Positions 2,179-37,954 of a stretch of DNA of 43,672 nt are shown piece after piece; the first letter of the stretch is position 1, and the number at the start of each line of letters is the position of its first letter. The position numbers and the translations under genes were made by a program. The notes beneath the pieces were generated by a model that was not told where the DNA came from, searched no databases, and saw nothing but the letters and a program-made list of their open reading frames with translations. The DNA lies in assembly GCA_012517875.1 (NCBI GenBank), contig JAAYUB010000145.1:1-43672 (forward strand). Reading direction: 5' to 3'. The stretch is from Acidobacteriota bacterium. GTDB taxonomy: Bacteria; Acidobacteriota; JAAYUB01.

Positions 2179-4507
2179 CGCGCCGCCGGACGAGCAGGCC
2201 CCATGCCGGCAGCAGCAGCAACATGAGCGCGAAAAAGACGGGCGTCTGCAGATCGCCCAGCGCCGGAAGGAGCAGCAGTCCCGTCAAGCCGGCGCCGGCC
2301 AGCGCCCCCAGATGATCGCAGGCGTTGACGCGGCCGGCAATTGCAGCCGGCGTGCCGGGGCCCTCCATCTGCATGCAGACGGACAGAGGAAAGTAAAGAC
2401 CGGTCAAAACTCCGGCTGCGAGCATCATCACGAAAAACCACGGCAGGATCACGGCGGACCGGCCGGTGGAGGTGGACGCCACGGTCACGCAGAGCGCGAT
2501 GCCCGCGCCGGGCAGCGTCAGGAAGGCCCATCGCGCCATGCGGGCGGCCGGCCAATCCACCCGGCGGTCCATCCACCAGGCACCGCCGGCCAAGCCCAGC
2601 ATGAACACGCCAACAAGCGCTCCCATCATGGAGTAGACGAAGCCGAACAGGTTCTGGACGCGGTACAGCAACAAGAGTTCCAGCCCCATGCCCGTGAAGC
2701 CGAGCAGGAACACGCCGGCCGCCGCGCCCGCTGCCGCCGGCCAGCCGGCGGTGCGGCGCGCCGCCAAAAACAGGTGAATCGCCAGCATCACGAGCAGAAC
2801 CGCCAGGACGATCCCTCCCAACCGGATGATGTCCAGCGCCGCCACGGCGTCGAGCCAGCCGCGCAGTCGCCCGCCAGTGGCCAGATCCCACACCCGCAGG
2901 TTCAGCAGGTAGCTCACGGGCCGCCGCTCGGTGTTCTCCCACGACGTCTCGGACCGGGCCAGCACGCCGCGCAGCCAGACGACGCGTTCCTCAGGCAGGA
3001 GCACCCGAAAATGGCGCGGCGTGAACCAATCGCTCCGGGCCAACCGGCGCCCCTCGAAGCGCCGGGACAGTTCGGCGGGATCCACGCTGGGCGCACCGTG
3101 CGCGTCCGAGGCCAGGAAGGTCATCCGGGCTCCGGGCGCGGCCAGCACCACCGGAAACTCCCGCCGCAGCGTCCGGTACACGGTGCCGACCGCGCGCTCC
3201 AGGTCACCCGCGATCACGTTCTCGCCGCTGTCCAGGCCCACGGCCAGCACGCCGCCGGCGGCCAGACAGGAACGACAGCGGGCGAAAAATTCCCGGGTGT
3301 ACCAGCGGTTGTTCGCCGCCGTGGCAGGAGGCGGCGTGAGCAGGACGATGAGATCGAACCGCTCCGGCGTGCCGGCGAAATATTCAACCGCGTCCGCCGA
3401 GACCCGGGCCAGGCGGGGGTCCGCCAGCGCGTGCCGCTCCGTCAGCGGCAGCCGGGGCTCCACCAGTTCGGCATACGCCGGATCCAGGCTGACCTGCGTC
3501 ACGCGACGGACCGGGTAGTCCAGCATCCGCTGGACCATTCCCTCCAGTCCGCGGCCCACCACCAGGACCCGCTCCGGCCGCCGGTGCTGGTTCATCAGGA
3601 AATGCGCCCGCATGTTGACTTCGAACGGCTCGGGAAATGAGACCGCCTGCATGCCATTGAGGTAGAGAGTGAACTGCCCCTCACGCTCACCCAGGGCAAG
3701 CAGCTGATAGCGGGACTCCCGCAGCTCAACGAGACGGACGCCCGGCGCCAACGTCCGCCAGTAGGCCCCGTCCAGCCGGACTTGCAGCCGGTCGGCCGCG
3801 CCGAAAGCCAGCGCCGCCGCCGCGACTGCGGCCACCCCCCACAGCACCGGCGTCACCCATGCCGAACGCGATTGATCGTTGCAGGATGCGGATTCAGGGA
3901 TCCGCGTTCTCCGTCGTTCGAGCGTCCACCCGGCGGCCAGGACCACCAGGGCGATCACTTCAACCAGGCCGAGCACGCGGACCGGCGGCCAACGACCGGC
4001 CCACCAGAAGGTGTATGCCAGCCCGCCGGCCAGGCTGCCGACTCCTTCCAGCCAGTACACCCGGCCGGCGGCGCTCAGCGACCGGCCGGCCTCTCCGGTC
4101 CCCGGCGCCCGTTCCGCCGCCATGGGAAAGGCCAGGCCCACCAGCAGCGCGATGGGCAGGACGCCCAGCACGCAGGCCGGCACGGCGTGCCGGACGTCCA
4201 GAAACAGCCCGGGCGGCACGCCGAGCCACGCACGCACCGTGTATAGGAGCGCCAGCTGGACGGCCCCCGCGACGGGCAAAACCGCAAGCACCACGGGCCA
4301 GGCGCGCGAGGCCCCGGCCGCTCGGCCGTGCCGCCGCCCCCACGCCATCGAACCCAGCGCGATGCCGGCGAACCAGCTGACGAACATCAACGCGATCATC
4401 AGCTCGTTGCCGTGGAACACGGCCAGCCCGCCACGCAGAACGACCAACTGGCCCACCATGGCCAGAAAACCCAACAGGAATGCCATCGGGAAAAACATCG
4501 CGGTCAT
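2174..4507 (-). CDS. Membrane-embedded spermidine-synthase-like protein (fused transporter/methyltransferase fold)
   Basis: A 777-residue protein with about six N-terminal membrane segments, a soluble Rossmann domain in the middle third, and further membrane segments at the C-terminus. The soluble part carries a nucleotide-binding loop (RVLVVGRGLEGMV, near residue 310) and the family pattern NRWYTREFF followed by GGVLAVGL, as in spermidine-synthase-like proteins. The aspartate that serves as catalytic base in true spermidine synthases appears replaced (FDLIVLLTPPP), so polyamine synthesis is doubtful and the substrate is unknown. The open frame extends to a TTG at 4552. I prefer ATG 4507 because it gives a clean N-terminal membrane helix, has a GGAAAG ribosome site six bases upstream, and leaves a possible -10 (TACAAT) in front. 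It is divergent from the enzyme gene at 4573. Confidence 0.8.
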   Translation of the reverse strand: MTAMFFPMAFLLGFLAMVGQLVVLRGGLAVFHGNELMIALMFVSWFAGIALGSMAWGRRHGRAAGASRAWPVVLAVLPVAGAVQLALLYTVRAWLGVPPGLFLDVRHAVPACVLGVLPIALLVGLAFPMAAERAPGTGEAGRSLSAAGRVYWLEGVGSLAGGLAYTFWWAGRWPPVRVLGLVEVIALVVLAAGWTLERRRTRIPESASCNDQSRSAWVTPVLWGVAAVAAAALAFGAADRLQVRLDGAYWRTLAPGVRLVELRESRYQLLALGEREGQFTLYLNGMQAVSFPEPFEVNMRAHFLMNQHRRPERVLVVGRGLEGMVQRMLDYPVRRVTQVSLDPAYAELVEPRLPLTERHALADPRLARVSADAVEYFAGTPERFDLIVLLTPPPATAANNRWYTREFFARCRSCLAAGGVLAVGLDSGENVIAGDLERAVGTVYRTLRREFPVVLAAPGARMTFLASDAHGAPSVDPAELSRRFEGRRLARSDWFTPRHFRVLLPEERVVWLRGVLARSETSWENTERRPVSYLLNLRVWDLATGGRLRGWLDAVAALDIIRLGGIVLAVLLVMLAIHLFLAARRTAGWPAAAGAAAGVFLLGFTGMGLELLLLYRVQNLFGFVYSMMGALVGVFMLGLAGGAWWMDRRVDWPAARMARWAFLTLPGAGIALCVTVASTSTGRSAVILPWFFVMMLAAGVLTGLYFPLSVCMQMEGPGTPAAIAGRVNACDHLGALAGAGLTGLLLLPALGDLQTPVFFALMLLLLPAWGLLVRRRG

Positions 4508-4572
4508 CGGGATCTTTCCATTTGATGGGAGGTATTGTAACATAGCCTTCAATTCTGTCTGGCCGAGGCGGC

Positions 4573-5559
4573 ATGTTCAGCAACGACCGATTTCCGCTGA
4601 TTCCGGGACCCACGCCGCTCGCCGAGGCATCGCATCTGCGCCGGATTCTCGGCGGCCCCCGGATTCTGATCAAACGAGATGATCTCACCGGGCGCATCGT
4701 GGGCGGTAACAAGATCCGCAAGCTGGAGTATCTGCTGGCCGACGCGCGCCGCGCCGGCGCCACCCACGTCGTCACCGGCGGCGGCGCCCAATCCAACCAC
4801 GCGGCTCAGACCGCCGTCTGCGCCCGGATGGCCGGGCTGGAAGCGGTCCTGGTGCTGTCGCGTCCGACGCCGGGCCGCCCCTGCGGCAATCTCCTGGTCC
4901 ACCGGCTGCTGGGCATCACGCCGGAGTACGTGGACCGCTACGAACCGGACGATCTGGAACAGGCCATGCGGCAATGCTGCGAACGACTGACCCGTGAGGG
5001 CTTCCGGCCATACCACATCCCGCTGGGAGGCAGCACCCCCATCGGCATCCGCGGCTACGTGGACTGCTGGCATGAAATCGCCAATCAATGCCGGACGCTG
5101 GGAGTGTCGCCGGCCGCCATCTATTCCGCCACCGGCACCGGCGGGACTCTGGCCGGGCTGCTGCTCGGCCACCTCGAAGCGCCCGCCTCCTGCCGGCTGG
5201 TCGGCGTGGATGTGGGCGCTATCCCCGGCGAGGGCCCGCTGCCGCGCGCGGTGGCCCTGGTGGCCGACGCCCGCGGCGGCCCCTGCCCCACCCTGCCCGT
5301 GGAGCTTAACCGCCACCAGATCGGACCGGGCTACGCCCGCCCCGGCCCGGATTGCCTGACGGCCATGCGGCTCTTTCTGCAGACCGAAGGCCTGCTGCTG
5401 GATCCGGCTTACACCGGCAAGGCGGCCGCCGCGCTCGTCGCCGACATCGGGGCCGGCCGCTGGCGGCGGGATGAAACCGTCGTCTTCATCCACACCGGCG
5501 GTGCGGCCGGCTTCTTCACCGAAGGCATGGCGGCACATCTGGATAATTCCCCCGCGTGA
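4573..5559 (+). CDS. D-cysteine desulfhydrase / ACC deaminase family PLP enzyme
   Basis: A 328-residue fold-type II PLP enzyme. The Schiff-base lysine is K47 in GGNKIRKLE, the substrate/carboxylate loop is GGGAQSNHAAQ (S74, N75, H76), and TGTGGTLAG further on binds the cofactor phosphate. This arrangement (Lys about 27 residues before Ser-Asn-His) is that of D-cysteine desulfhydrase and 1-aminocyclopropane-1-carboxylate deaminase. D-cysteine desulfhydrase converts D-cysteine to pyruvate, sulfide and ammonia; ACC deaminase opens the cyclopropane ring to 2-oxobutyrate and ammonia. The two activities cannot be separated here by eye. D-cysteine desulfhydrase is more widespread and is the better first guess. 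The next gene starts 7 bases after its stop codon. Confidence 0.85.
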   Translation: MFSNDRFPLIPGPTPLAEASHLRRILGGPRILIKRDDLTGRIVGGNKIRKLEYLLADARRAGATHVVTGGGAQSNHAAQTAVCARMAGLEAVLVLSRPTPGRPCGNLLVHRLLGITPEYVDRYEPDDLEQAMRQCCERLTREGFRPYHIPLGGSTPIGIRGYVDCWHEIANQCRTLGVSPAAIYSATGTGGTLAGLLLGHLEAPASCRLVGVDVGAIPGEGPLPRAVALVADARGGPCPTLPVELNRHQIGPGYARPGPDCLTAMRLFLQTEGLLLDPAYTGKAAAALVADIGAGRWRRDETVVFIHTGGAAGFFTEGMAAHLDNSPA

Positions 5560-5566
5560 GGTCCCC

Positions 5567-6091
5567 ATGCGTCCACGATCCGTGTCCGGTTCGCGCACCC
5601 GCCTGAGCTGCGGAACCCTGCTCGGCTACGCCGCGGTCATCGTGCTCCTCGCCGCAGTCGCGATCCTGGCGCTCATGCCCCATTTTTTCCGACGCTTCGA
5701 TTGGAACCGGTTTTTGAAGTCGCCGTGGGAGGAGATCCAGCGCGCCGCCGACAAGGCCGAAATCCCCCTCGAGCCGGAGGCGCCCCCGGGTGTGCGCACC
5801 CTGCGCCAGGGCCGCCTGGTCATCCAGTACGAACCGGCTTCGCCGGCCGCCGGCGCCGCGCCGTTCGTCCAGGGCCAGGTCGAGAACACGGGCACCACGG
5901 CTGTCCGCAAGCTGGTTCTTGAGATGCGGATCGCCCCGGCGCCCAACCGGGTGCACACCGAGTCGTTCGAGATCCTCCGCAACGACCCGCTCCTCCCCGG
6001 GCAGCGGCGCCGGTTCATCGTCCACCCGAGCGACGCCCCGTCCGGTTGGACACCGGGCCGCGTGAGTCTCCGGATCGCGTCGTTTGAATAG
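5567..6091 (+). CDS. Small membrane-anchored protein of unknown function
   Basis: A 174-residue protein with a basic N-terminus, one hydrophobic segment at about residues 18-38 and a soluble remainder that is presumably periplasmic. The soluble part (about 75-174) reads like a beta-sandwich that tracks a protein-modification or ligand domain: VQGQVENTGTTAVRKLVLE, then LLPGQRRRFIVHP. This resembles FxLYD/DUF2393-type extracellular beta domains, but I do not recognise a specific family. It starts 7 bases after the PLP enzyme and is probably cotranscribed. The open frame extends upstream to 5471, but that part overlaps the previous gene and ATG 5567 places the membrane anchor at the N-terminus. 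Confidence 0.7.
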   Translation: MRPRSVSGSRTRLSCGTLLGYAAVIVLLAAVAILALMPHFFRRFDWNRFLKSPWEEIQRAADKAEIPLEPEAPPGVRTLRQGRLVIQYEPASPAAGAAPFVQGQVENTGTTAVRKLVLEMRIAPAPNRVHTESFEILRNDPLLPGQRRRFIVHPSDAPSGWTPGRVSLRIASFE

Positions 6092-6118
6092 GCCGGCTGC
6101 CGCCCCGCCGTACTCAGC

Positions 6119-7255
6119 CTAGAGGCGGAACCGGGTGAATGCGCCGATCTGTCCGCTGTTCTCCAAGCCCACGCCCTCGTAGACCTGCAGCACCCCACAG
6201 TTGTGTTCCAGCGACCGATCGATGGCCGCGGTCACGACATCGGTGATTTCCACCATGCTCACGTTGCACAGCGGACACACGCGGTCCAGGATCCCCAGAT
6301 AACCGCAGTGGCTGCACACCGAACCGGCCGCCTGGAAATCACGGGAGACCACCAGGGTCTCCAGCCCCTGGGCGTTGAGGTAACGAAGGGTCTCCTCGAG
6401 CCCGCTCACCGCCAGACCGCCCGAGGCGACGGTGTGGTGCAGGCGCTCCACCTGGCGGCAGTGGTCCTTGTAGACCAGCCCCTTCTCCACCCGCGCCGAA
6501 CGCTCCAGCACCTCGTGTTCAGGCGTGTCCACCGGCAGATCGAGCTCGGCCACCAGGCGCTCTTTCAGGTAGGAGTGGAGCCACTCCTGAAATTCCGCCT
6601 CGTACTCGTTTTTGCACCCCAGAATCAGCCATTCGAACTGGTCGCGCTTGTAGAGCTGGAACAGGGTGTCGGCGACATGGTGGAAATGCTCGCTGATCTT
6701 GTGATCGCGCTTGCGGGCGGTCCGCTTCTCGTCGTAACCGGACCAGCCGCCGCGGCGCACGTGGGCCGGCACCTCGTCGGCGATCCGTTTGTACTCCAGG
6801 ATGGTTCCCTTGTGGATGATGTAGATGCGGGCGTCCGACTTGTCCACCAGTGCGGTGCAGAAGCGGTGGTACTCGATTTCCTGGAAGTGGAGCGGCCGCA
6901 CGTGGGGCGCCTCGCCCACGAGGAATCGGTTGCGGGGCGGCCGCGGCAGCTCCACCTCGTGCCAGAATCCGGCGGCCGAGCAGCTGAACAGGGCCAGGCC
7001 GCGGACGTTGAACTCCTTGTAATTTTTGATGATGTGATTTTCGACGCGCTGGATCTCGGCGAGGGCCTCGCGGCGGTAGTCCCGCCGCAGGTCCGATTCG
7101 ATCTGGACGCGGGCCAGTCGGGTCATTTCCTTGAGCCGGGTCTCAACCTCCTTTTTGGACCCGCTCTTCCCGTCAGTGTTCAGATAGACGGAGACCACCG
7201 GATGATCCGGCGAGCGAAAGCCGCGGATCTGCTCGATGTCTCGCTTGCTGAGCAT
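6119..7255 (-). CDS. Bacterial archaeo-eukaryotic release factor (eRF1/Vms1-like) protein
   Basis: A 378-residue protein with the three-part layout of archaeal/eukaryotic class 1 release factor eRF1: an N-terminal domain (about 1-130), a middle RNase-H-like domain (about 132-280) and a C-terminal domain carrying a zinc ribbon (C314, C317, C327, C330; CxxC-x9-CxxC). It ends SGQIGAFTRFRL, close to the eRF1 ending GGIGAILRY. Where eRF1 and Vms1 have the catalytic GGQ, this protein has GGWSGYDEKR at 169-178, so the hydrolytic glutamine is replaced. Bacterial members of this superfamily (baeRF) are known from comparative genomics, and eukaryotic Vms1/ANKZF1 cleaves peptidyl-tRNA on stalled ribosomes. 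A ribosome-rescue or peptidyl-tRNA role is inferred. A good AGGAGG ribosome site lies just before ATG 7255, and a minus-strand promoter at 7429-7457 implies a leader of about 165 bases. Confidence 0.82.
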   Translation of the reverse strand: MLSKRDIEQIRGFRSPDHPVVSVYLNTDGKSGSKKEVETRLKEMTRLARVQIESDLRRDYRREALAEIQRVENHIIKNYKEFNVRGLALFSCSAAGFWHEVELPRPPRNRFLVGEAPHVRPLHFQEIEYHRFCTALVDKSDARIYIIHKGTILEYKRIADEVPAHVRRGGWSGYDEKRTARKRDHKISEHFHHVADTLFQLYKRDQFEWLILGCKNEYEAEFQEWLHSYLKERLVAELDLPVDTPEHEVLERSARVEKGLVYKDHCRQVERLHHTVASGGLAVSGLEETLRYLNAQGLETLVVSRDFQAAGSVCSHCGYLGILDRVCPLCNVSMVEITDVVTAAIDRSLEHNCGVLQVYEGVGLENSGQIGAFTRFRL

Positions 7256-28083: not shown

Positions 28084-28112
28084 GGGGGGCGGCGCCCGAA
28101 CGGGCCGCCCCC
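28084..28112. terminator. GC-rich hairpin between convergent genes, possible bidirectional terminator
   Basis: A 9-bp GC stem (28085-28093 with 28104-28112) with an inner stem lies between the M16 gene and uvrB stop codons, overlapping the latter. There is no T-run, so termination efficiency is uncertain; on both strands it would act as a barrier. Confidence 0.45.
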
Positions 28113-30172
28113 TATTCCTCCTCGCCCAGCATCGCCAGCAGCAGCTCCTGCAGCTCCCGCATCCGGTCGCGCAACGCCGCCGCCCGTTCGAATTCCTGCG
28201 CGCCGGCGGCTTCGATCATCCGCTGGCGGGTGGCGGCGATGTCCCGCTCGAGGTCAGCGGTCGTCCGGTAGGTCTTCGTCGCGGGCAGCTCCCGGGTGAG
28301 ATCCACGTAGTCGGCCTCGCACACCCGCACGAGTTCCTCGTCCAGCGGCTTGACGATGCTCTGGGGGGTGATGCCGTGGGCGCGGTTGAATGCCTCCTGG
28401 ATCTCGCGGCGGCGCTGGGTTTCCCGCATCGCCGTGGCCATGGAGTCGGTGACGGCGTCCGCGTACAGGATGACCGTGCCGCTGAGGTGGCGCGCCGCCC
28501 GGCCCATGGTCTGGATCAGCGCGGTGGCGGACCGGAGGAAGCCCTCCTGGTCGGCGTCCAGCACCGCCACCAGCGATACCTCGGGCAGGTCCAGCCCCTC
28601 CCGCAGCAGGTTGATGCCCACCAGCACGTCGTGCACCCCGAGGCGCAGGTCCCGCAGGATTTTCATCCGGTCCAGCGTCTCGATCTCCGAGTGGAGGTAG
28701 GCCACCCGGACACCCAGCTCGCGGAGGTAGTCGGTGAGATCCTCGGCCATCTTCTTCGTCAGCGTGGTCACAAGGGTCCGCTCGCCCGCCTCGGCCCGGC
28801 GGCGGACCTCGGCATACAGGTCGTCGATCTGCCCCTTCACCGGCCGGACGTGAATGACCGGATCGAGCAGGCCGGTGGGCCGCACGATCTGCTCCACCAC
28901 CCGCCCGGCGGCCTGCTGGAGCTCATAGGGCCCCGGCGTGGCCGACACGTACACCACCTGGTGGACGCGGTTCTCGAATTCCTCGAAGTTGAGCGGGCGG
29001 TTGTCCAGCGCCGACGGCAGGCGGAACCCGTGCTCCACCAGGGTGAGCTTGCGGGTCCGGTCCCCGTGGTACATGCCCCGCACCTGGGGAATGGTCACGT
29101 GCGACTCGTCCACGAAGATGAGGTGGTCGGACGGCAGGTAGTCCAGCAGGGTCGGCGGCGGTTCGCCGGGCTGGCGTGCGGTGAGGTGGCGCGAGAAGTT
29201 CTCGATGCCCCGGCAGTATCCCAGTTCCTTGATCATCTCCAGGTCATACATGGTGCGCTCGTGCAGGCGCTGGTGCTCCAGCAGCTTTCCCTCGCCGAGC
29301 AGGCGCGATTCGCAGCCCTGCAGCTCGCTCTTGATGCTGGCCACGGCCCGGTCCCACTGGGCACGGGGGATGACGTAATGGCTTTTGGGATAGACCGGCA
29401 GGCGCTCGTGCTGCGACAGCGTCCGGCCGGTCAGCGGATCCACCATCGCCAGCGCTTCGATCTCGTCGCCGAACAGCTCCACCCGGATCAGGCCCTCGCC
29501 GTAGGGTGGATGGATGTCGATCACATCGCCCCGCACCCGGAAATTGCCTGCCTCCGGCGCCACGTCGTTGCGGGTATACTGAAGTTCCACCAGCTTGAGC
29601 AGGAGCTCGCGGCGGTGGATGGTTTTCCCCTTCTCCAGGAACAGGACCATGCCGTAGTAGGCCTCGGGTGAGCCGAGGCCGTAAATGCAGCTCACGCTCG
29701 CCACGATGATGCAGTCGCGGCGCTCGAACAGGCTGCGCGTGGCCGAGTGGCGCAGCCGGTCGATCTCCTCGTTGATCTGGACCTCTTTCTCGATGTAGGT
29801 GTCGGTGGCCGGGATGTAGGCTTCCGGCTGGTAGTAGTCGTAGTAGCTGACGAAATACTCCACCGCGTTGTCGGGGAAGAAACGCCGGAACTCCTGGTAG
29901 AGCTGGGCGGCCAGCGTCTTGTTGTGGGCCAGCACCAGCGCCGGCCGCCCCATGGCCTCGATCACCCGGGCCATGGAGTACGTCTTGCCGCTGCCGGTGA
30001 CCCCCAGCAGCACCTGGTGCCGGGCGCCCGCCCGCAGGCCGGCCGTCAGCTTCTGGAACGCCTGCTCCTGGTCGCCCTGCGGCTGGAAGCGCGCCTCCAG
30101 CCGGAACGGCCGCTCCCGTCCCACCTGCCGGGAATAGGCGATGCCGCGATCATTCAATCCGTCGTCCGCCAC
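28112..30172 (-). CDS. uvrB: Excinuclease ABC subunit B
   Basis: A 686-residue UvrB, the DNA-damage verification helicase of nucleotide excision repair that hands damaged DNA from UvrA to UvrC. The Walker A motif is GVTGSGKT (57-64), the beta-hairpin region is the run around [16 protein letters not shown], and helicase motifs include VDESH (Walker B) and [13 protein letters not shown]. The C-terminal UVR motif (about 645-680) binds UvrC. The open frame continues far upstream into the next gene; I choose GTG 30172 because GGGAGG precedes it with six-base spacing and residues before [13 protein letters not shown] are as few as in relatives. Length fits (E. coli 673). Confidence 0.95.
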
Positions 30173-30224
30173 TCGCCCCTCCCGCCGTTCCGTCGACGGA
30201 GCGGCGACGGCACATTCTAACACA

Positions 30225-30253
30225 TTGCAAACGCTTGATTCTTGTGATATATC
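30225..30253 (+). promoter_or_regulatory. Possible promoter of the BY-kinase gene
   Basis: TTGCAA (30225-30230) and TATATC (30248-30253) are separated by 17 bases. The -10 fits only moderately, and the predicted start would leave a leader of about 12 bases, placing the ribosome site very near the 5' end. Confidence 0.4.
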
Positions 30254-30271
30254 AAAGCTCCGGGAGCCGTG

Positions 30272-32953
30272 ATGGACGAACTGAAAACCGAATCCTTCGA
30301 CATTCAGGAATACCTGACCCTCATCAAGAAAAACCGCCTGCTGATCCTGGCCTGCGTCCTGGCCGGGGCGTTCCTGGCTCTCATCTTCAACGAATCGCGG
30401 ACACCCATCTACAGCGCCACCGTCCGGATCGAGGTCCGCTCGGTGCCCCAGGTGCTGCTTACCCAGTACGCCTACGTTTCCGACTGGTGGACAAAGGAAC
30501 GTGACCTGAACACCCAGTTCGAAATCCTGCGCAGCCCCGCCATCCTCGAGCGGGTGGTGCGCAAAGCCCGGATCATGGAGCAAGCTGAACCGCCGGGCGA
30601 ACGCTCTTCCGGCACCGCCCGTTTCTTCTCCGGGCTCACCCATTTCTTCGGCCTGTCACAGCCCGAGGCTGCGGCGCCCACCGGCTCGCACAGCCAGCAG
30701 GAGTTCGATGCCATGGTGGCCTCCCTGTGCGCGGGTGTCACCATCGAGCCGGTCAAGGACACCAACCTGGCTGACATCACCATCAAGCATTCGAACCCGT
30801 CGGTCGCCTTCATGGCCACGGACACTATCGCCAAGGCGTATGAGGATTTCATCCTCGAGACCCGCTTCGACGAAATCCGCCGGATGATGAACATCTACAC
30901 CGACCAGCTGGTCACGCTGAAGAAAACGCTGCGCGAATCGGAAGAGGACTACCTGGCCTTCATCCAGCGCACCGGCATCTCCTCCCTCCAGGAGAAGAAG
31001 GAGATCACTCTAGAGGGGCTGTCCGACCTCAAACTCAATTACACCGACACGAAGATCCGTCGGGCCGAGGTGGAGGCGGACCTGGAAACCCTGCAGGGCG
31101 TCTCCCAGGAGAGCGATCTCGCCCGCCTGCTGCAAGCGCCTCTGCTGGACAAGAACGCCGCCCTGAACCAACTCAAGCTGGAGATTCTGAACGTCCAGTT
31201 CCAGCTGCAGGACCTGCAGAAACGCTATCGGCCTCAGCACCCGGAGGTGACGAAGAAGGAGAGCATGCTGCAGTCGCTGGTGACCAAGTTCCGCGGCGAG
31301 CTCGACACCCATCTCCGCAGCAAGCGCGCCGAGCGCGACGCCCTGATCGCCAAGGAAAACGAGCTGGCCCGGGCCATCCGTGAAAACGAGTCCATCGCCA
31401 TCAAGGATTCCTCGGTGGCGCTGCAGTACAAAAAGTTCAAGGACGAGCTCGATTCGAACAAGACGCTCTATGAGACGCTGCTGAACAAAATCAAGGAGCT
31501 GGACATCACCAAGTCGTCCCGCGAGAGCTCGATCCAGGTCGTCGAACAACCCGTCCGGCCGGTGGATCCGATCTCCCCCCGCAAGGGCGTCAACCTGCTG
31601 CTGGGCTTGCTGCTGGGCCTGCTGACCGGCGTCGGTCTGGCGTTCGGCCTGGAATACCTGGACCAGACGCTGCGGAATACCGACCAGATCAAGCACCTGC
31701 TCAAGCTGCCCACCATCGCCATGATCGGCCAGCTCAACGACAAGGAGCTGGCGGGCGCCACTGTCCCGCTGGTCACCGAGCCGTCGATTCCCGGCACGTT
31801 CCAGGAAGCATTCCGGTTCCTCAAGACCAACCTGACCATCGCCACGCTGAACCGAAGGCACACGCTGATGATGATCACCAGCACCGGTTCCGGCGAGGGG
31901 AAAACCACCGTTGCCGTCAATCTGGCGCTTTCCTTCGCCCGTGAAGGCAAGGACGTGCTCCTCGTGGATTTGGACCTGCGCCGGCCCAAGGTGCACGCGG
32001 CCCTCGGGATCGACAACCGCCAAGGGTTCACCGACCTGATGGTGGATCCGTTCACCTGCATCCCACTCAGCGGCTCACTCGACAGCATCCCGCTGAGCGA
32101 TCTGATCTACCTGCTGATCCATCTCGGCCACAGCGGCTGCCTCACCATCGAGACACCCGACAGCCATTACGAGATCGTCCTGGTCAAGGGGCGGATCGCC
32201 CTGGTGAGCTCCTCGCAGCGCGAGGAGCACGACCGCCTCGGCCGCCTGCTGGTGAACAAATTCGGCTTCCCCGAGGCGCGGCTGGCCGACGCCCTCCAGG
32301 AGGCGGCGCGGCGCCGCCAGCGGTTGGGCGAGTATCTGTACGACATCGGCGCCGTGGAACTGGAACCGGTGATCGAAGCGCTCCGGCACCAGTTCACCGC
32401 CACCTTCCACCGCCTGCTCCCCGCCACCGCCGGCACGTACCGCTTCGAGGAACGGGAGGACCTCTTCTTCCATCCCGAGATCCTCCAGCGGCTGGAGGCG
32501 GAAAAATCGCTGGCGGACGACCTGGCGGTGCCCATCGGCAGCGTGGCGAAATTCCACGATCGCTACGGCATCGTGAAAGGCCCCGCCGACGGGCTATACG
32601 TGTTGACCGCCGGTTCCCGCTCCCCCGAACCCGACGAGATCCTCGCTTCGGAGCGACTCTTCAGCATGCTGGACATGCTGCGCAAGCATTTCCACACCGT
32701 CGTCATCGACTCGCCGCCGTCGGCCATGGTCAGCGACTCGAACACCCTGTCGCCCCACGTGGACGGGATCGTGTACGTCGTCCGCTACGGCAAGCTGCCC
32801 CGCAAGCTGATCCAGAGCACGGTGGAACGCCTCCGCGCCAACAGCGGCAAGATTTTCGGCGTGGTGCTCAACGGGGTCAACATCCGGCGGGAATCGTACG
32901 TGGACGAATACTACTACTACAGCGACTACTACCGCCGGACCGACGAAAGCTGA
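30272..32953 (+). CDS. Wzz/BY-kinase polysaccharide chain-length and tyrosine autokinase with inserted PATAN domain
   Basis: An 893-residue protein combining a Wzz-type chain-length domain and a bacterial tyrosine kinase. The first membrane helix is near residues 22-40, a long coiled-coil periplasmic segment fills about 190-415, and the second helix (about 441-461) follows the Pro-rich [13 protein letters not shown]. The kinase has Walker A GSGEGKTT (539-546), Walker A' [11 protein letters not shown] (562-572), and Walker B VVIDSPP (810-816); the tail has tyrosines Y880-Y883 and Y886-Y887 for autophosphorylation. Between A' and B, residues about 600-760 are not kinase: the insert starts [15 protein letters not shown], runs through SGCLTIETP and [12 protein letters not shown], and matches the PATAN (DUF4388) domain. 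The kinase resumes near Y765. It exports and regulates polysaccharide with the convergent Wza/ligase operon. Confidence 0.88.
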
Positions 32954-32977: not shown

Positions 32978-35758
32978 CTATCGTAACGCATCCAGCTCCC
33001 GCCGCGCCGCTTCGTTGCCCGGTTCCGCCGCCAGCAATGCCGTGTAGCACTGCCGAGCCCTGTCCCGGTCGCCGGCCAACAGATAACTGCGGCAGATCCT
33101 GAGCTGAAGCGCCCGGTCGGACGGCCGGAGGCCGGCCAGTCGCTGGTACACGCCCGCAGCCAGCGCGAACCGGCCCTTATGTTCGTAAAGGAGGGCCAGG
33201 TATTCAAGCAGCGCGGTGTTGTCGGGAAACTGCCGCACCGCCATCTCCAGCTCGGGCACCGCCTGCTCCACGAGGTCCTGCGCCACGAGCACCCGGCCCA
33301 GTTCCAGGTACAGGTTCGGCTCTTCCGGCCGGAGCCGGATCACCCGGCGCAGAGTCTCCTCGGCCCGGACGCGGTCGCCGCTGCGGGTGTACAACCGATA
33401 GAGTCGGTTCAGCGCGTCGACATCGTCCGGGAACCGGCCCCGGTACGATTCCAGCGCCTGAATGGCGCCGGTGACATCGCCGCGTGCCTCCGCGGCCTGC
33501 GCGGAGAGCAGCGCCACGCGGGGATACGCGCCGGATCGGCCGGTTAGGGCGGCCAGAAACCGTTCCCGGGCACCCACCCGTTCCGGCCGATCGAAAAATT
33601 CGTAAGCCTGGTTGGCGGCGCCCGCCGACCACGCCTGTGCATCGCCGTACGCCAGCCAGAGCGCCACCGCCTCGGCGTCGCGATTCTGCCCGATGGCCAA
33701 GCCGGCCGCCAGAGCAGTCCGGCGCGGATCGTCGGACGGGCCGCGCCCTTCCAGCATGTTAAGGTGGCCGGCGGCCTCGTCCGGCCGTCCCGCGTCGAGC
33801 GCCCAGAGCCCCAGGGTCAGGTGAATCCCGGTGGGATCCGGCGCCCACTGCAGGGCGGACCGCAAGCCGCGCCGGGCCAGTTCCCGAAAGGCCGCCTCAC
33901 CGAAGAACGGCTGGAGCGGCTGGTGGTAACCGAGATCCGGCAGGAGGGCCACGGCGCGCTCCATGTGCCGTTCGGCCGCAGCCCGATCGCCGCGGCGCAG
34001 GAAGTGGATCGCGGCGATGTCGTGGAAATACGGATTGTTCGGATCCAGCTCCAGGGCCCGCCAGTAGTAGCGCCACGGATCGAGGTCGCCGCCGCGGCGC
34101 GGATCCCGTTGCCGCTCCATGGCCGCCAGGCGGTTCAGCACCGGCGCCATCTCGGCGCCGCCGAGCGGCGCGCGGTGCAGTGCGGCCGCGGCCTCCGCCA
34201 GCATCCCGGCCCGGAGCCAGGCGCGGCCGTCGAGCGGAAACGCGCGGAGGGCGTCCAGGTAGCCCTGCCACGCCGGCTCGAAGGCGCGGCTGCGGTTCAG
34301 CCCGAACCGCGCCCGTAGCGCCCAGCGCTCGCCCCATTCGAAATGTGCCTCGGCGTTGTCAGGATCCACGCGCCGCGCGACGGCAAGCGCCTCCACCGAC
34401 GGCGTCTCCCGCTCCAGCACGGCCAGCAGGCGGCTCTCCTCCAACTTCAGATTGGCCAGTCCGAGCCATGCGGCCGCAGGCACGAGGAGCAGGGCCGGCG
34501 CGAAGCAAACCGCAGGCAGCCGGACCGTCTCGCCCGACCGGTTCGCCACGGCGGCGCCCAGCAATGCCGCCAGCGTATAGGCGCAAGCCAGGATGTGCAT
34601 GTGAAAATCGAATGACACCTCGACGAGGACGGCCACGAGCGCCCCCTGGGTGGCTAGAAACAGGCTCTGCTTCATCGGCCGGCGGGCCGTGCGCATGCCG
34701 GACAGCAGGAGTCCGGCCAGCACGGCAACAAGGCCGACGACCGCCGCGGCGCCCACCAACCCGGCTTCAGCCAGCACCTGCAGATAGTCGCTGTGTGCAA
34801 ACCAAGCCTGGCTGTTGGCTCCCGGTGCGCGATACAGGGGAAACATCCAACCGAAAGTGCCCGGACCGCAGCCCAAAACGGGGTGAGCCAGGAACATGGC
34901 CAGCGCCGACCGCCAGATCGCCACACGACCGCCGATGCTGACCAGCTGGGCTTCGGTGGACGACTGGCCCAGCCGCCAATCCAGCGGCTCCAGGCCCAGC
35001 TGAATCAGCACGCCGCCGATGATCACAAAGAGTAGTACACCGAGCCGGAATACCCGGCCGCGGTGGGACTGCAGGTCCAACTGCAGCAATCCCATTACCC
35101 CCACCGAGGCGAGCAGCCCCAGCCAGGCGCCGCGTGACAGAGAGAAGGCCACGCCCGCCGCGATCAGGCAGTTGGCCACTGCCAGCACGATCTTCCCGGA
35201 CAGCGACCGGGCGCGCAAATACAGGATCAGTCCGAACGGGAAGAGCAGCGTCAGGTAGCCGGCGAAATGGTTGCGGTTAATGAAGGTGCCGTGCGCCCCC
35301 CCCCGATCGAGCCCGACCGCCACGCCCCACACCTGGTGCACGTCGAGGAGCCAGTTCAGCAGACCCCACAGGGCGATGGCGGCCGCCAGCGCTACCAGCC
35401 CGACAGCCAGCCGACGCCACTGCCGCAGGTCGTTGAACAGGGCCGCGCTCAGGAAGAAGACCAGTCCCAGGCCCGACCAGTACAGAAAGCTCTCCAGCGA
35501 CATCCGCCGGTACTCGCTGAACAGGCCGGCGGCCGCGAGCGCCCCGACGGTCAGGCAGACCGCCAGTGCCAGGCGCCGCGGGCAAGCCACTTCCACCGCC
35601 CGTCCGAAAGGCGCGAACGCCAGGGCGGCAGCCGCCGCCAGCAGGCCCGTCGCCAGCAGGGTGTAACCCGGGGTCACGCCGCCGAAGTACAGCGGCGCCG
35701 TCAGCAGAATGACCAGCGCGGTTCCCCGTGCCGCGGTGGAGCGCCAGTGCCGTTTCAT
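32978..35758 (-). CDS. O-antigen ligase/polymerase-like membrane protein fused to TPR
   Basis: A 926-residue protein with about eleven membrane segments in residues 1-430, then a TPR-rich soluble part to the end. The membrane part is of the Wzy_C/WaaL type: a periplasmic loop motif GTFINRNHFAGYL near residue 155, SRGAWLGLL, and the loop GCGPGTFGWMFPLYR then HSDYLQVLAEAGLVGA. These enzymes link lipid-carried polysaccharide repeats to lipid A or polymerise them. The C-terminal third has regular TPR repeats (for example LYLELGRVLVAQDLVEQAV). The fusion is unusual in length. It is the last gene of the minus-strand exopolysaccharide operon, 12 bases after the Wza gene, and ends 24 bases from the convergent BY-kinase. 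Confidence 0.87.
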   Translation of the reverse strand: MKRHWRSTAARGTALVILLTAPLYFGGVTPGYTLLATGLLAAAAALAFAPFGRAVEVACPRRLALAVCLTVGALAAAGLFSEYRRMSLESFLYWSGLGLVFFLSAALFNDLRQWRRLAVGLVALAAAIALWGLLNWLLDVHQVWGVAVGLDRGGAHGTFINRNHFAGYLTLLFPFGLILYLRARSLSGKIVLAVANCLIAAGVAFSLSRGAWLGLLASVGVMGLLQLDLQSHRGRVFRLGVLLFVIIGGVLIQLGLEPLDWRLGQSSTEAQLVSIGGRVAIWRSALAMFLAHPVLGCGPGTFGWMFPLYRAPGANSQAWFAHSDYLQVLAEAGLVGAAAVVGLVAVLAGLLLSGMRTARRPMKQSLFLATQGALVAVLVEVSFDFHMHILACAYTLAALLGAAVANRSGETVRLPAVCFAPALLLVPAAAWLGLANLKLEESRLLAVLERETPSVEALAVARRVDPDNAEAHFEWGERWALRARFGLNRSRAFEPAWQGYLDALRAFPLDGRAWLRAGMLAEAAAALHRAPLGGAEMAPVLNRLAAMERQRDPRRGGDLDPWRYYWRALELDPNNPYFHDIAAIHFLRRGDRAAAERHMERAVALLPDLGYHQPLQPFFGEAAFRELARRGLRSALQWAPDPTGIHLTLGLWALDAGRPDEAAGHLNMLEGRGPSDDPRRTALAAGLAIGQNRDAEAVALWLAYGDAQAWSAGAANQAYEFFDRPERVGARERFLAALTGRSGAYPRVALLSAQAAEARGDVTGAIQALESYRGRFPDDVDALNRLYRLYTRSGDRVRAEETLRRVIRLRPEEPNLYLELGRVLVAQDLVEQAVPELEMAVRQFPDNTALLEYLALLYEHKGRFALAAGVYQRLAGLRPSDRALQLRICRSYLLAGDRDRARQCYTALLAAEPGNEAARRELDALR

Positions 35759-35770
35759 GCCGCGATCCGC

Positions 35771-36646
35771 TTAGAACCAGCTTTCCGGGACAATGACCTT
35801 GTCCCCCGGGACCAGGGGGACATCATGGATTTCGCCTTTCTTGATTTTCTTGATGTTGATCTTGAGCCGAGTGACTGTCTCGCCGTCCAATCGGATCACC
35901 TCGGCGCGGTTCTCCGCCGCGAAGGGCAGGAAGCCGCCGGCCATCAGGCACAACTCGTACACGGTCATGCCCGGCCGGAAGTCGTAGGCCCCCGGTGATT
36001 TCACCTTCCCCTCGATGTAGACCTGGTAGGACTGCGTGTCGGATTTGCGGGACGGCACATTGATGATGTCATCGGGCAGGATGGGCAGGGCGTCCGGATC
36101 CTGCCGGCCGCTGAGCACGTCCTGGAGACTGATCGTGTACTTCGTGCGCCCTTCCCCGCCAGCCGGCTGCTCGGCGGCCCGCCGGAACAGGATGGCGTCC
36201 GACGCGGCGTTTTCGGTCATCCCGCCGACAAGCGACAGGATCTCCAAGATGTTGGTCGCATCCTGCCGGAGGAAGTATTCGCCGGGCTTGCGCACCTCGC
36301 CCAGCACCAGGATCTTTTTACTCTTGTACTCCTGAATGTCGACCTTGACGGTGGGATTCAGCAGGTAGTCCCGCTCGAGCACCGCCCGGAGCTTGTCCCG
36401 GGCCTCGGTGAGAGTCAGCCCCCCCACTTCGATCTCGCCGGCCAGCTTGAGGGTGACCGTGCCGCGCGGGCTGACAGGAAACACCCCGGTCAGATCGGCT
36501 TCACCCACGACCTCAATTTTCAGCACGTCGCCGATACCGAGATGATACGTTTCAGCAGCACTCGCCCACGCCGCCGCGACGATCCACGCCAGCGCGCATC
36601 CGGCGGCCGTGACGACTCCATACAATCGTGGAAATGATGTCACCAT
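35771..36646 (-). CDS. Wza-like polysaccharide export protein (SLBB)
   Basis: A 291-residue exported protein with a signal peptide (about 1-31, likely cut after ASA), a polysaccharide-export (PES) domain (about 33-110; HLGIGDVLKIEVVGE, then LLNPTVKVDIQEYKSK) and two SLBB domains. The first is at about 112-165 (ILVLGEVRKPGEYFL then LSLVGGMTENA) and the second at about 205-260 (VYIEGKVKSPGAYDF then CLMAGGFLPFA). This is the order of Wza, the outer-membrane polysaccharide channel, but a lipobox Cys is not convincing and there is no long C-terminal helix, so it may be a periplasmic partner for a separate barrel. The beta-barrel gene upstream (36713-37909) may supply the pore. It belongs to the same operon. 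Confidence 0.88.
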   Translation of the reverse strand: MVTSFPRLYGVVTAAGCALAWIVAAAWASAAETYHLGIGDVLKIEVVGEADLTGVFPVSPRGTVTLKLAGEIEVGGLTLTEARDKLRAVLERDYLLNPTVKVDIQEYKSKKILVLGEVRKPGEYFLRQDATNILEILSLVGGMTENAASDAILFRRAAEQPAGGEGRTKYTISLQDVLSGRQDPDALPILPDDIINVPSRKSDTQSYQVYIEGKVKSPGAYDFRPGMTVYELCLMAGGFLPFAAENRAEVIRLDGETVTRLKINIKKIKKGEIHDVPLVPGDKVIVPESWF

Positions 36647-36712: not shown

Positions 36713-37909
36713 CTAGAAAATCGTGTACCGGACGCCCACCGAGAACACGTTCATGCCGAACTCGTAATCGGCGTTGCTGGAGTTGCGGTTCATGAACCGG
36801 TAGTGGGATTCGATGAACCAGCGGTCCTGCATCTGGCGGGCATAGCCGACGCCGATGAACTGGTAGTCGTCCTCGCGGTTGTCGGCCAGGTCGTCAGCGG
36901 ACAGGACCTCAAAATCGTTCCAGCGCAGGCCGAACTCCAGGAACAGGTTGTCCCGAGCGGTCATCAGCCAGTTGCCCCGGCCCTGCAGATAGTAATCCGT
37001 ATAGAAATCCGCGCTGTAGTTGGGCGCCTGGCTGCGCTCCCGGCCCACGGTCACGTTCAGGCCGGATCGCTCGCGCTGCATCTGGACGCCGAAGTTGTAG
37101 TACAGGTTGGTGCCGCTGCTCCAGGTGCCGCCATCGACGTCGCGATCCTGGGCGCCGATTTCGCCATTCAGGCTCCAGGCGTCGGAAAACTGCCGTTCGA
37201 TGACGCCGCCGAAGGTGTTGTCGGTGTAATCCATGTAATCCGCGTCGGGGAAGTTGCGGTCATAGTACCGGTAGATGAAACCGGCCTTGGTGCGGGTGTT
37301 GAAGTGGTAGTACAACCCCGCATTGAACTGGTGTCCCCGGGAGTTGATGAAATCGTGATCGGCGCTGTCATCGTCACGGTAGTAATCGATGATGGTATTG
37401 CCGTAGCCCACGGAGAGTTCCACGTGATCGGTGGTCTTGAAGATCACGTCCGCCAGCAGGTTGTTCTGGATGAACCGGCCATACACCATCTCGTCGACGA
37501 GACGGAAATCGGGGCGGTTCGTGTTGTCCAGATTGTCCCGCAGGCGGAACAGCACGTGGTCGCTGAGCCGGTAGCCGAAGTTGAACTTGAGATAGTTGTT
37601 GTAGATATCGGAGCTGTCCAGTTCCTGGCCGGGAATTTCGGACTCGGTGTCCAGGTAGAGGTCGCCCTGGCCGCGGTAGCCGATGTTGAAGAACGACCGG
37701 GCCCCCTCCTTGCTCCACTCCAGTTCCGGCGCGATGGTGAACACCCACGTGCTGACCTCGGTACCGTCCGGGCTGTAGTACACGTTGTCGTCGTACTGGG
37801 GCATCACCGCCACGCTCAGCTTGAAGCCCTTGGCGGGTGTCGCGGCGGTAACCACGCCTGCCAGCATCAGTGCCAAGCCCATGATCAGTCCGATGAATAT
37901 CCGTCTCAC
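36713..37909 (-). CDS. Outer-membrane beta-barrel protein of the exopolysaccharide locus
   Basis: A 398-residue protein with a signal peptide (about 1-22; RRIFIGLIMGLALMLAGVV) and a barrel made of alternating aromatic strands and polar turns, ending VGVRYTIF with the final Phe. It resembles the putative beta-barrel porin 2 (BBP2) proteins that accompany exopolysaccharide export genes. Asp/Tyr-rich turns (for example YDDNVYYSPDG) are common. The start is GTG 37909, with ACGGAGG ahead at good spacing; the longer open frame has no ribosome site. A role as the outer pore is inferred from location next to the Wza-like gene. Confidence 0.8.
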   Translation of the reverse strand: MRRIFIGLIMGLALMLAGVVTAATPAKGFKLSVAVMPQYDDNVYYSPDGTEVSTWVFTIAPELEWSKEGARSFFNIGYRGQGDLYLDTESEIPGQELDSSDIYNNYLKFNFGYRLSDHVLFRLRDNLDNTNRPDFRLVDEMVYGRFIQNNLLADVIFKTTDHVELSVGYGNTIIDYYRDDDSADHDFINSRGHQFNAGLYYHFNTRTKAGFIYRYYDRNFPDADYMDYTDNTFGGVIERQFSDAWSLNGEIGAQDRDVDGGTWSSGTNLYYNFGVQMQRERSGLNVTVGRERSQAPNYSADFYTDYYLQGRGNWLMTARDNLFLEFGLRWNDFEVLSADDLADNREDDYQFIGVGYARQMQDRWFIESHYRFMNRNSSNADYEFGMNVFSVGVRYTIF

Positions 37910-37954
37910 GCGCGCAACCTCCGTGTGATCGACTCTGTCGGTTCCCAAACCGAC

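Follow-up and report, generated by a model that had tools for sequence, protein, structure and literature searches.

We describe a polysaccharide tyrosine kinase from an Acidobacteriota bacterium that carries a PATAN (DUF4388) domain within its own catalytic fold. The gene occupies positions 30272-32953 on the forward strand of the 43,672-nucleotide stretch of DNA that we analyzed, hereafter the window, and its open reading frame encodes a PCP-2a/BY-kinase of 893 amino acids plus a stop codon. Profile matches and alignments identify the extra segment of this protein as a true DUF4388/PATAN domain lying within the P-loop kinase, between Walker A' and Walker B, and they identify the helical half of the domain as a homolog of the c-di-GMP receptor fold MshEN_N. 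The architecture is a new one assembled from known parts. A first-pass annotation, made from the sequence alone, had proposed the insertion and was unaware of any description of it, and our literature search likewise turned up no published description of a PATAN domain in a BY-kinase.

The product is predicted to be an inner-membrane polysaccharide co-polymerase and tyrosine autokinase of the Wzc type, belonging to an EPS export locus. Like the Wzc/PCP-2a BY-kinases E. coli Wzc, VpsO and BceF, which also belong to EPS or capsule settings, it combines Wzz, GNVR and kinase domains in that order in one chain. The Wzz domain (residues 8-98; 30293-30565; PF02706, E=3.3e-11) and the GNVR domain, which adjoins the second transmembrane stretch (residues 391-458; 31442-31645; PF13807, E=6.7e-12), are N-terminal to the kinase, where CbiA and AAA_31 P-loop matches start at residue 534. 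The catalytic motifs had been described as intact in the first pass, together with a Tyr-rich tail, and we find the same: Walker A (GSGEGKTT, residues 539-546; 31886-31909), Walker A' (residues 563-572; 31958-31987) and Walker B (TVVIDSPP, residues 809-816; 32696-32719) are all present, and the protein ends in a Tyr-rich tail (residues 876-893; 32897-32950), with all of these features on the forward strand. Among NCBIfam models, the kinase matches EpsF with E=4e-30, under the curated cut-off, and EpsG (TIGR03029) with E=5.7e-22, its 78 bits against a cut-off of 313.8 bits placing it outside the EpsG family. On the opposite strand, the UvrB reading frame as listed (28112-30643) overlaps the start of the kinase gene; this frame begins upstream of its likely true start, and its conserved part starts near residue 160-190.

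The distance between two of its motifs sets this protein apart from ordinary Wzc/PCP-2a kinases. Walker A' and Walker B are 247 residues apart in the window kinase and 246 in an ortholog from another genome (G005), whereas ordinary kinases have about 80 residues in this interval: the source genome's other BY-kinase, an ordinary one (G000:C18, L070), has 80, and a kinase from Neomarinimicrobiota (L041) has 81. These figures bear out the earlier observation that the motifs, then put at about 240 residues apart, are far closer in ordinary BY-kinases. An alignment with E. coli Wzc covers query residues 243-593 (Wzc up to 589) and picks up again at 778-887 (from Wzc 607), and thus query residues 594-777 (184 amino acids) stand for 17 residues of Wzc. 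From the alignments, we place the inserted segment at about residues 594-773 (32051-32590, forward strand), in place of the 14-17-residue loop of ordinary BY-kinases; the first estimate of about 600-760 was right as to position and is corrected here as to its bounds. The insertion site is probably a surface loop after the helix that comes behind Walker A'. As predicted in the first pass, PF14332 (DUF4388) matches within the insert, at residues 600-733 (32069-32470, forward strand; E=3.9e-14), with 53-59 bits against a gathering cut-off of 25. A six-frame search of the genome recovers the domain at the kinase insert with 56 bits, along with six further DUF4388 places elsewhere. A PATAN domain is described as a beta-alpha-beta core with an alpha-helical insertion; the secondary structure predicted for the insert runs E-H-E-E-E and then continues in helices, in AlphaFold2 models whose mean pLDDT is below 40, too low to place the domain (39.4 for the insert alone, from 1 sequence, and 37.4 for residues 490-893, from a 4-row alignment).

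The helical second half had been read as just another part of the PATAN domain, a description that is incomplete. Residues 655-707 (32234-32392, forward strand) form an MshEN_N-like module of 53 residues that matches NF053729, a model of the MshE-related c-di-GMP motif, over 53 of 53 positions (E=5.2e-6 with the full protein, 3e-7 with the insert alone). The published MshEN motif consists of two units of 24 residues with a spacer of 5 (PMC5013675), and the insert shares this arrangement with the MshEN receptors MshE, PilB/PilF and NfrB, its two motifs starting 29 residues apart. Motif I (32234-32305) retains 7 of the 11 consensus positions and fails at positions 10, 11 and 24, so that the contact residues RLG, G10, L17, L21 and Q24 are not complete in both motifs; motif II (32321-32392) retains 8 of 11 and passes the relaxed published motif. 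Across the three kinase-borne copies, the counts are 7, 4 and 4 for motif I and 8, 9 and 9 for motif II. In motif I, these lineages replace Gln24 with A, S and S and the Gly at position 10 with F, L and A, while the hydrophobic contact positions 2, 17 and 21 remain hydrophobic; motif II is intact in all three, Gln included. The window module scores 26-30 bits with NF053729, and all three copies stay below the curated cut-off of 38 bits. Unlike the known MshEN receptors, then, the window module has a motif I without Gln24 and Gly10, is housed inside a PATAN domain and scores under the curated cut-off. Since motif I is without its Gln, c-di-GMP binding by the kinase is doubtful.

The same relationship extends to PATAN domains outside kinases. 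In an alignment of 18 PATAN domains (A2; 15 stand-alone domains from Acidobacteriota and the 3 kinase-borne copies), NF053729 matches all 18, at best with 2e-18, and two stand-alone domains scanned singly rise above its cut-off, with 55-58 bits. Compared with structures, the alignment profile matches PilF (6f8l, E=1e-22), MshE (5htl, E=5e-12) and also PilB, over the same columns. Most stand-alone PATANs retain 8-10 of the 11 positions in motif I, and both glutamines are present in 13 of 15. The alpha-helical insertion of the stand-alone proteins L013, L015, L018, L058 and others in this alignment is homologous to MshEN_N. A search of openly accessible papers turned up none that identifies the helical part of PATAN as an MshEN module. 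PATAN/DUF4388 domains form a large family that in cyanobacteria is tied to motility and heterocyst patterning. The inserted domain resembles other PATAN/DUF4388 proteins (PatA, PixE, PixG and the stand-alone proteins of Acidobacteriota) in its PF14332 match and its predicted helical insertion, but known PATANs either stand alone or are joined to REC domains, and we found none described inside a kinase fold.

As judged from its orthologs, this architecture has been passed down in two or more families within a single order. The gene recurs with 97% identity in an independent MAG (USMO_maxbin.051, genome G001, locus L038). Genomes G004 and G005, both from a different family of the order (f2), share the architecture and its insertion site, at 33-36% identity over the fused region. 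The reading frame is open and GC3 is 0.84-0.91 throughout. Nothing supports an assembly chimera or frameshift artefact, to which we give practically no credence: a chimera at 32.07 or 32.56 kb, the failure foreseen in the first pass, is excluded by the recurrence of the fusion in the independent MAG and in the distant orthologs. In a further genome (G002), kinase residues 1-512 and 824-893 are found on two contig ends, with 513-823 falling in the gap between them, which is a gap rather than a chimera; we accordingly rejected the idea that this genome is without the kinase gene. A genome of the same family as the source (G003) has an ordinary BY-kinase only. In an even sample of 396 genomes from the phylum, at least four contain a complete end-to-end match to the fused profile (the source genome, the independent MAG, G004 and G005), all from one order, and the complete architecture is absent from the others, in a scan that scored at most six candidates per genome and may therefore miss a few. 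The answer to the earlier question of a lineage-wide architecture is thus negative for Acidobacteriota. Outside the phylum, distribution was judged from plasmids and a low-sensitivity scan of genome contigs; none of the plasmid records spans as much as 80% of the fused region, and scans of viral contigs yielded no relatives that would deepen the alignment. In a tree of PATAN domains the three kinase-borne copies group together with a support of 0.98, a pattern that fits insertion on one occasion in the order's ancestry. The insert is under purifying selection, with a dN/dS of 0.07 between the source genome and the independent MAG and zero amino-acid changes in residues 655-707. In the orthologs of the second family (L043, 8896-11595, reverse strand; L044, 7412-10018, forward strand), Walker A' has its first Asp replaced by Asn (LLINLDLRRP); their kinase activity may accordingly be weak, lost or changed, and the module may play a different part in them.

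The neighborhood of the kinase is one of polysaccharide export. Convergent with it is the gene of a 926-residue Wzy_C O-antigen ligase/polymerase that carries TPRs in the same chain (32978-35758, reverse strand), followed by an outer-membrane polysaccharide export (OPX) protein with Poly_export and two SLBB domains, EpsE/EpsY-like (35771-36643, reverse strand), and by an EpsL-like outer-membrane beta-barrel (36713-37948, reverse strand; TIGR03014, E=3.6e-8, below cut-off). The OPX protein terminates directly behind its SLBB part and is thus without a C-terminal membrane helix. This short protein is encoded beside the barrel, and the pair is a plausible candidate for a composite OPX/beta-barrel translocon in Acidobacteriota, of the kind described elsewhere (PMC9601211). 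Elsewhere in the source genome, the ordinary second BY-kinase, without the insert (3947-6133 of its contig), has its own SLBB export gene directly upstream, and the genome therefore has two EPS systems. The source genome also encodes two low-mass tyrosine phosphatases and 12 GGDEF proteins, and GGDEF enzymes are present in every genome compared.

The closest precedent for the pairing of domains comes from the EpsG family. Positions 3-60 of the EpsG model match PATAN helical modules and positions 80-164 match the window kinase, meaning that a family already exists under a name of its own in which the BY-kinase is preceded by an MshEN_N-like part; the match at positions 3-60 suggests a c-di-GMP link in the EpsG family too. 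Both proteins combine an MshEN_N-like segment with a BY-kinase and have EpsE- and EpsL-like genes nearby. The arrangement differs, in that EpsG has the segment ahead of its kinase and leaves the Wzz part to a second protein, EpsF, whereas the window kinase has its MshEN_N-like module internally, nested in a PATAN domain within the kinase fold, and its own Wzz part in the chain.

We suggest that the insert is a cytoplasmic signal-input module that modulates the cycling of the kinase and its octamer and thereby makes polymer length or export respond to a signal in the cell, a reading that we favor with modest confidence. It extends the first-pass proposal that a signaling partner could gate kinase activity or oligomer assembly and so connect chain length with a sensory input. 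In Wzc, unphosphorylated octamers form, tails are phosphorylated in the active site of a neighbor, and phosphorylation takes the ring apart; the tail-binding pocket comprises A534-P536, P645-L647, E675 and S679 (PMC8285477, PMC11986026), and the insertion site (Wzc about 589-607) falls outside it. By the same scheme, the kinase core of the window protein would still build a ring, each Tyr-rich tail receiving its phosphate from the neighboring protomer, and phosphorylation would drive disassembly of the octamer. The PATAN beta-sheet and the nested four-helix MshEN_N unit would form an input domain on every ring protomer, to be occupied by a partner, which could be another protein or else c-di-GMP bound at the half-conserved site. 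Occupancy could shift the orientation or packing of neighboring kinase domains and with it the rate of the assembly and phosphorylation cycle, and the altered rate would tie polymer length or export to the signal. The input function, the octamer geometry, the direction of the effect and the ligand are predictions of this model. It builds on the identity of the PATAN domain, its insertion site with kinase sequence continuing on both sides, the intact catalytic motifs, and the inheritance, conservation and purifying selection of the insert. The MshE motif match, the EpsG precedent, the EPS neighbors, the GGDEF enzymes and phosphatases, and the published Wzc cycle add to it. The model is weakened by the Walker A' Asn of the second family and by the lack of a recognizable dedicated partner gene beside the kinase.

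Because the helical half matches an MshE-type c-di-GMP motif, the leading candidate for the signal changes. NfrB-type glycosyltransferases and MshE/PilF ATPases are under c-di-GMP control, and the module might likewise be a direct receptor, with the nested MshEN_N binding c-di-GMP and gating the kinase. The exact 24+5+24 geometry and the NF053729 match speak for such a receptor, as do the preservation of motif II and of the hydrophobic positions of motif I, the GGDEF enzymes in every genome, and NfrB-family models that also match the module. We nonetheless consider direct binding unlikely: the losses in motif I recur in all kinase-borne copies, motif I fails the relaxed motif that Wang et al. 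published (PMC5013675), all three copies score below the curated cut-off, and c-di-GMP is not bound by T. thermophilus GSPII-A, one of whose motifs is degenerate (PMC11731258). We hold as tentatively the broader proposal that c-di-GMP or a close dinucleotide gates the autokinase from within the P-loop fold via the nested MshEN_N and that the PATAN helical insertion is an unrecognized c-di-GMP receptor in many stand-alone DUF4388 proteins.

The domain could instead serve for docking or localization, binding another protein to site the EPS machine or couple it to pili while leaving catalysis unaffected. PATAN-REC proteins bind PilB1 in Synechocystis, and PixE and other PATAN proteins interact with this pilus motor (PMC7690835, PMC9090330); the persistence of the LG..L positions and the beta part beside a half-decayed c-di-GMP site is in keeping with such a role. 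A terminus would be a simpler place for a docking domain, however, the position inside the P-loop fold suggests coupling, and we found no pilus genes among the annotated window proteins; we judge this role to be quite unlikely. That the insert is a tolerated passenger, acquired once in a permissive surface loop and then retained through descent without a regulatory role, seems very improbable. The replaced loop is outside the known catalytic and tail-binding elements and the insertion is confined to one order, but its retention in two families at about 33% identity under strong purifying selection argues against a passenger, as does the nature of PATAN and MshEN_N as signaling modules.

To our knowledge, the signals that set the activity of Wzc-type tyrosine autokinases are largely unknown; because this kinase has an input domain of its own, related to c-di-GMP receptors, the question of the signal becomes directly testable on one purified protein. 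If gating by c-di-GMP were true, this protein by itself would connect a second messenger with the chain length of a polysaccharide. Beyond this kinase, the identification of the PATAN helical insertion as an MshEN_N unit, with both glutamines in most of the stand-alone members tested, raises the testable hypothesis that domains throughout the family are c-di-GMP receptors.
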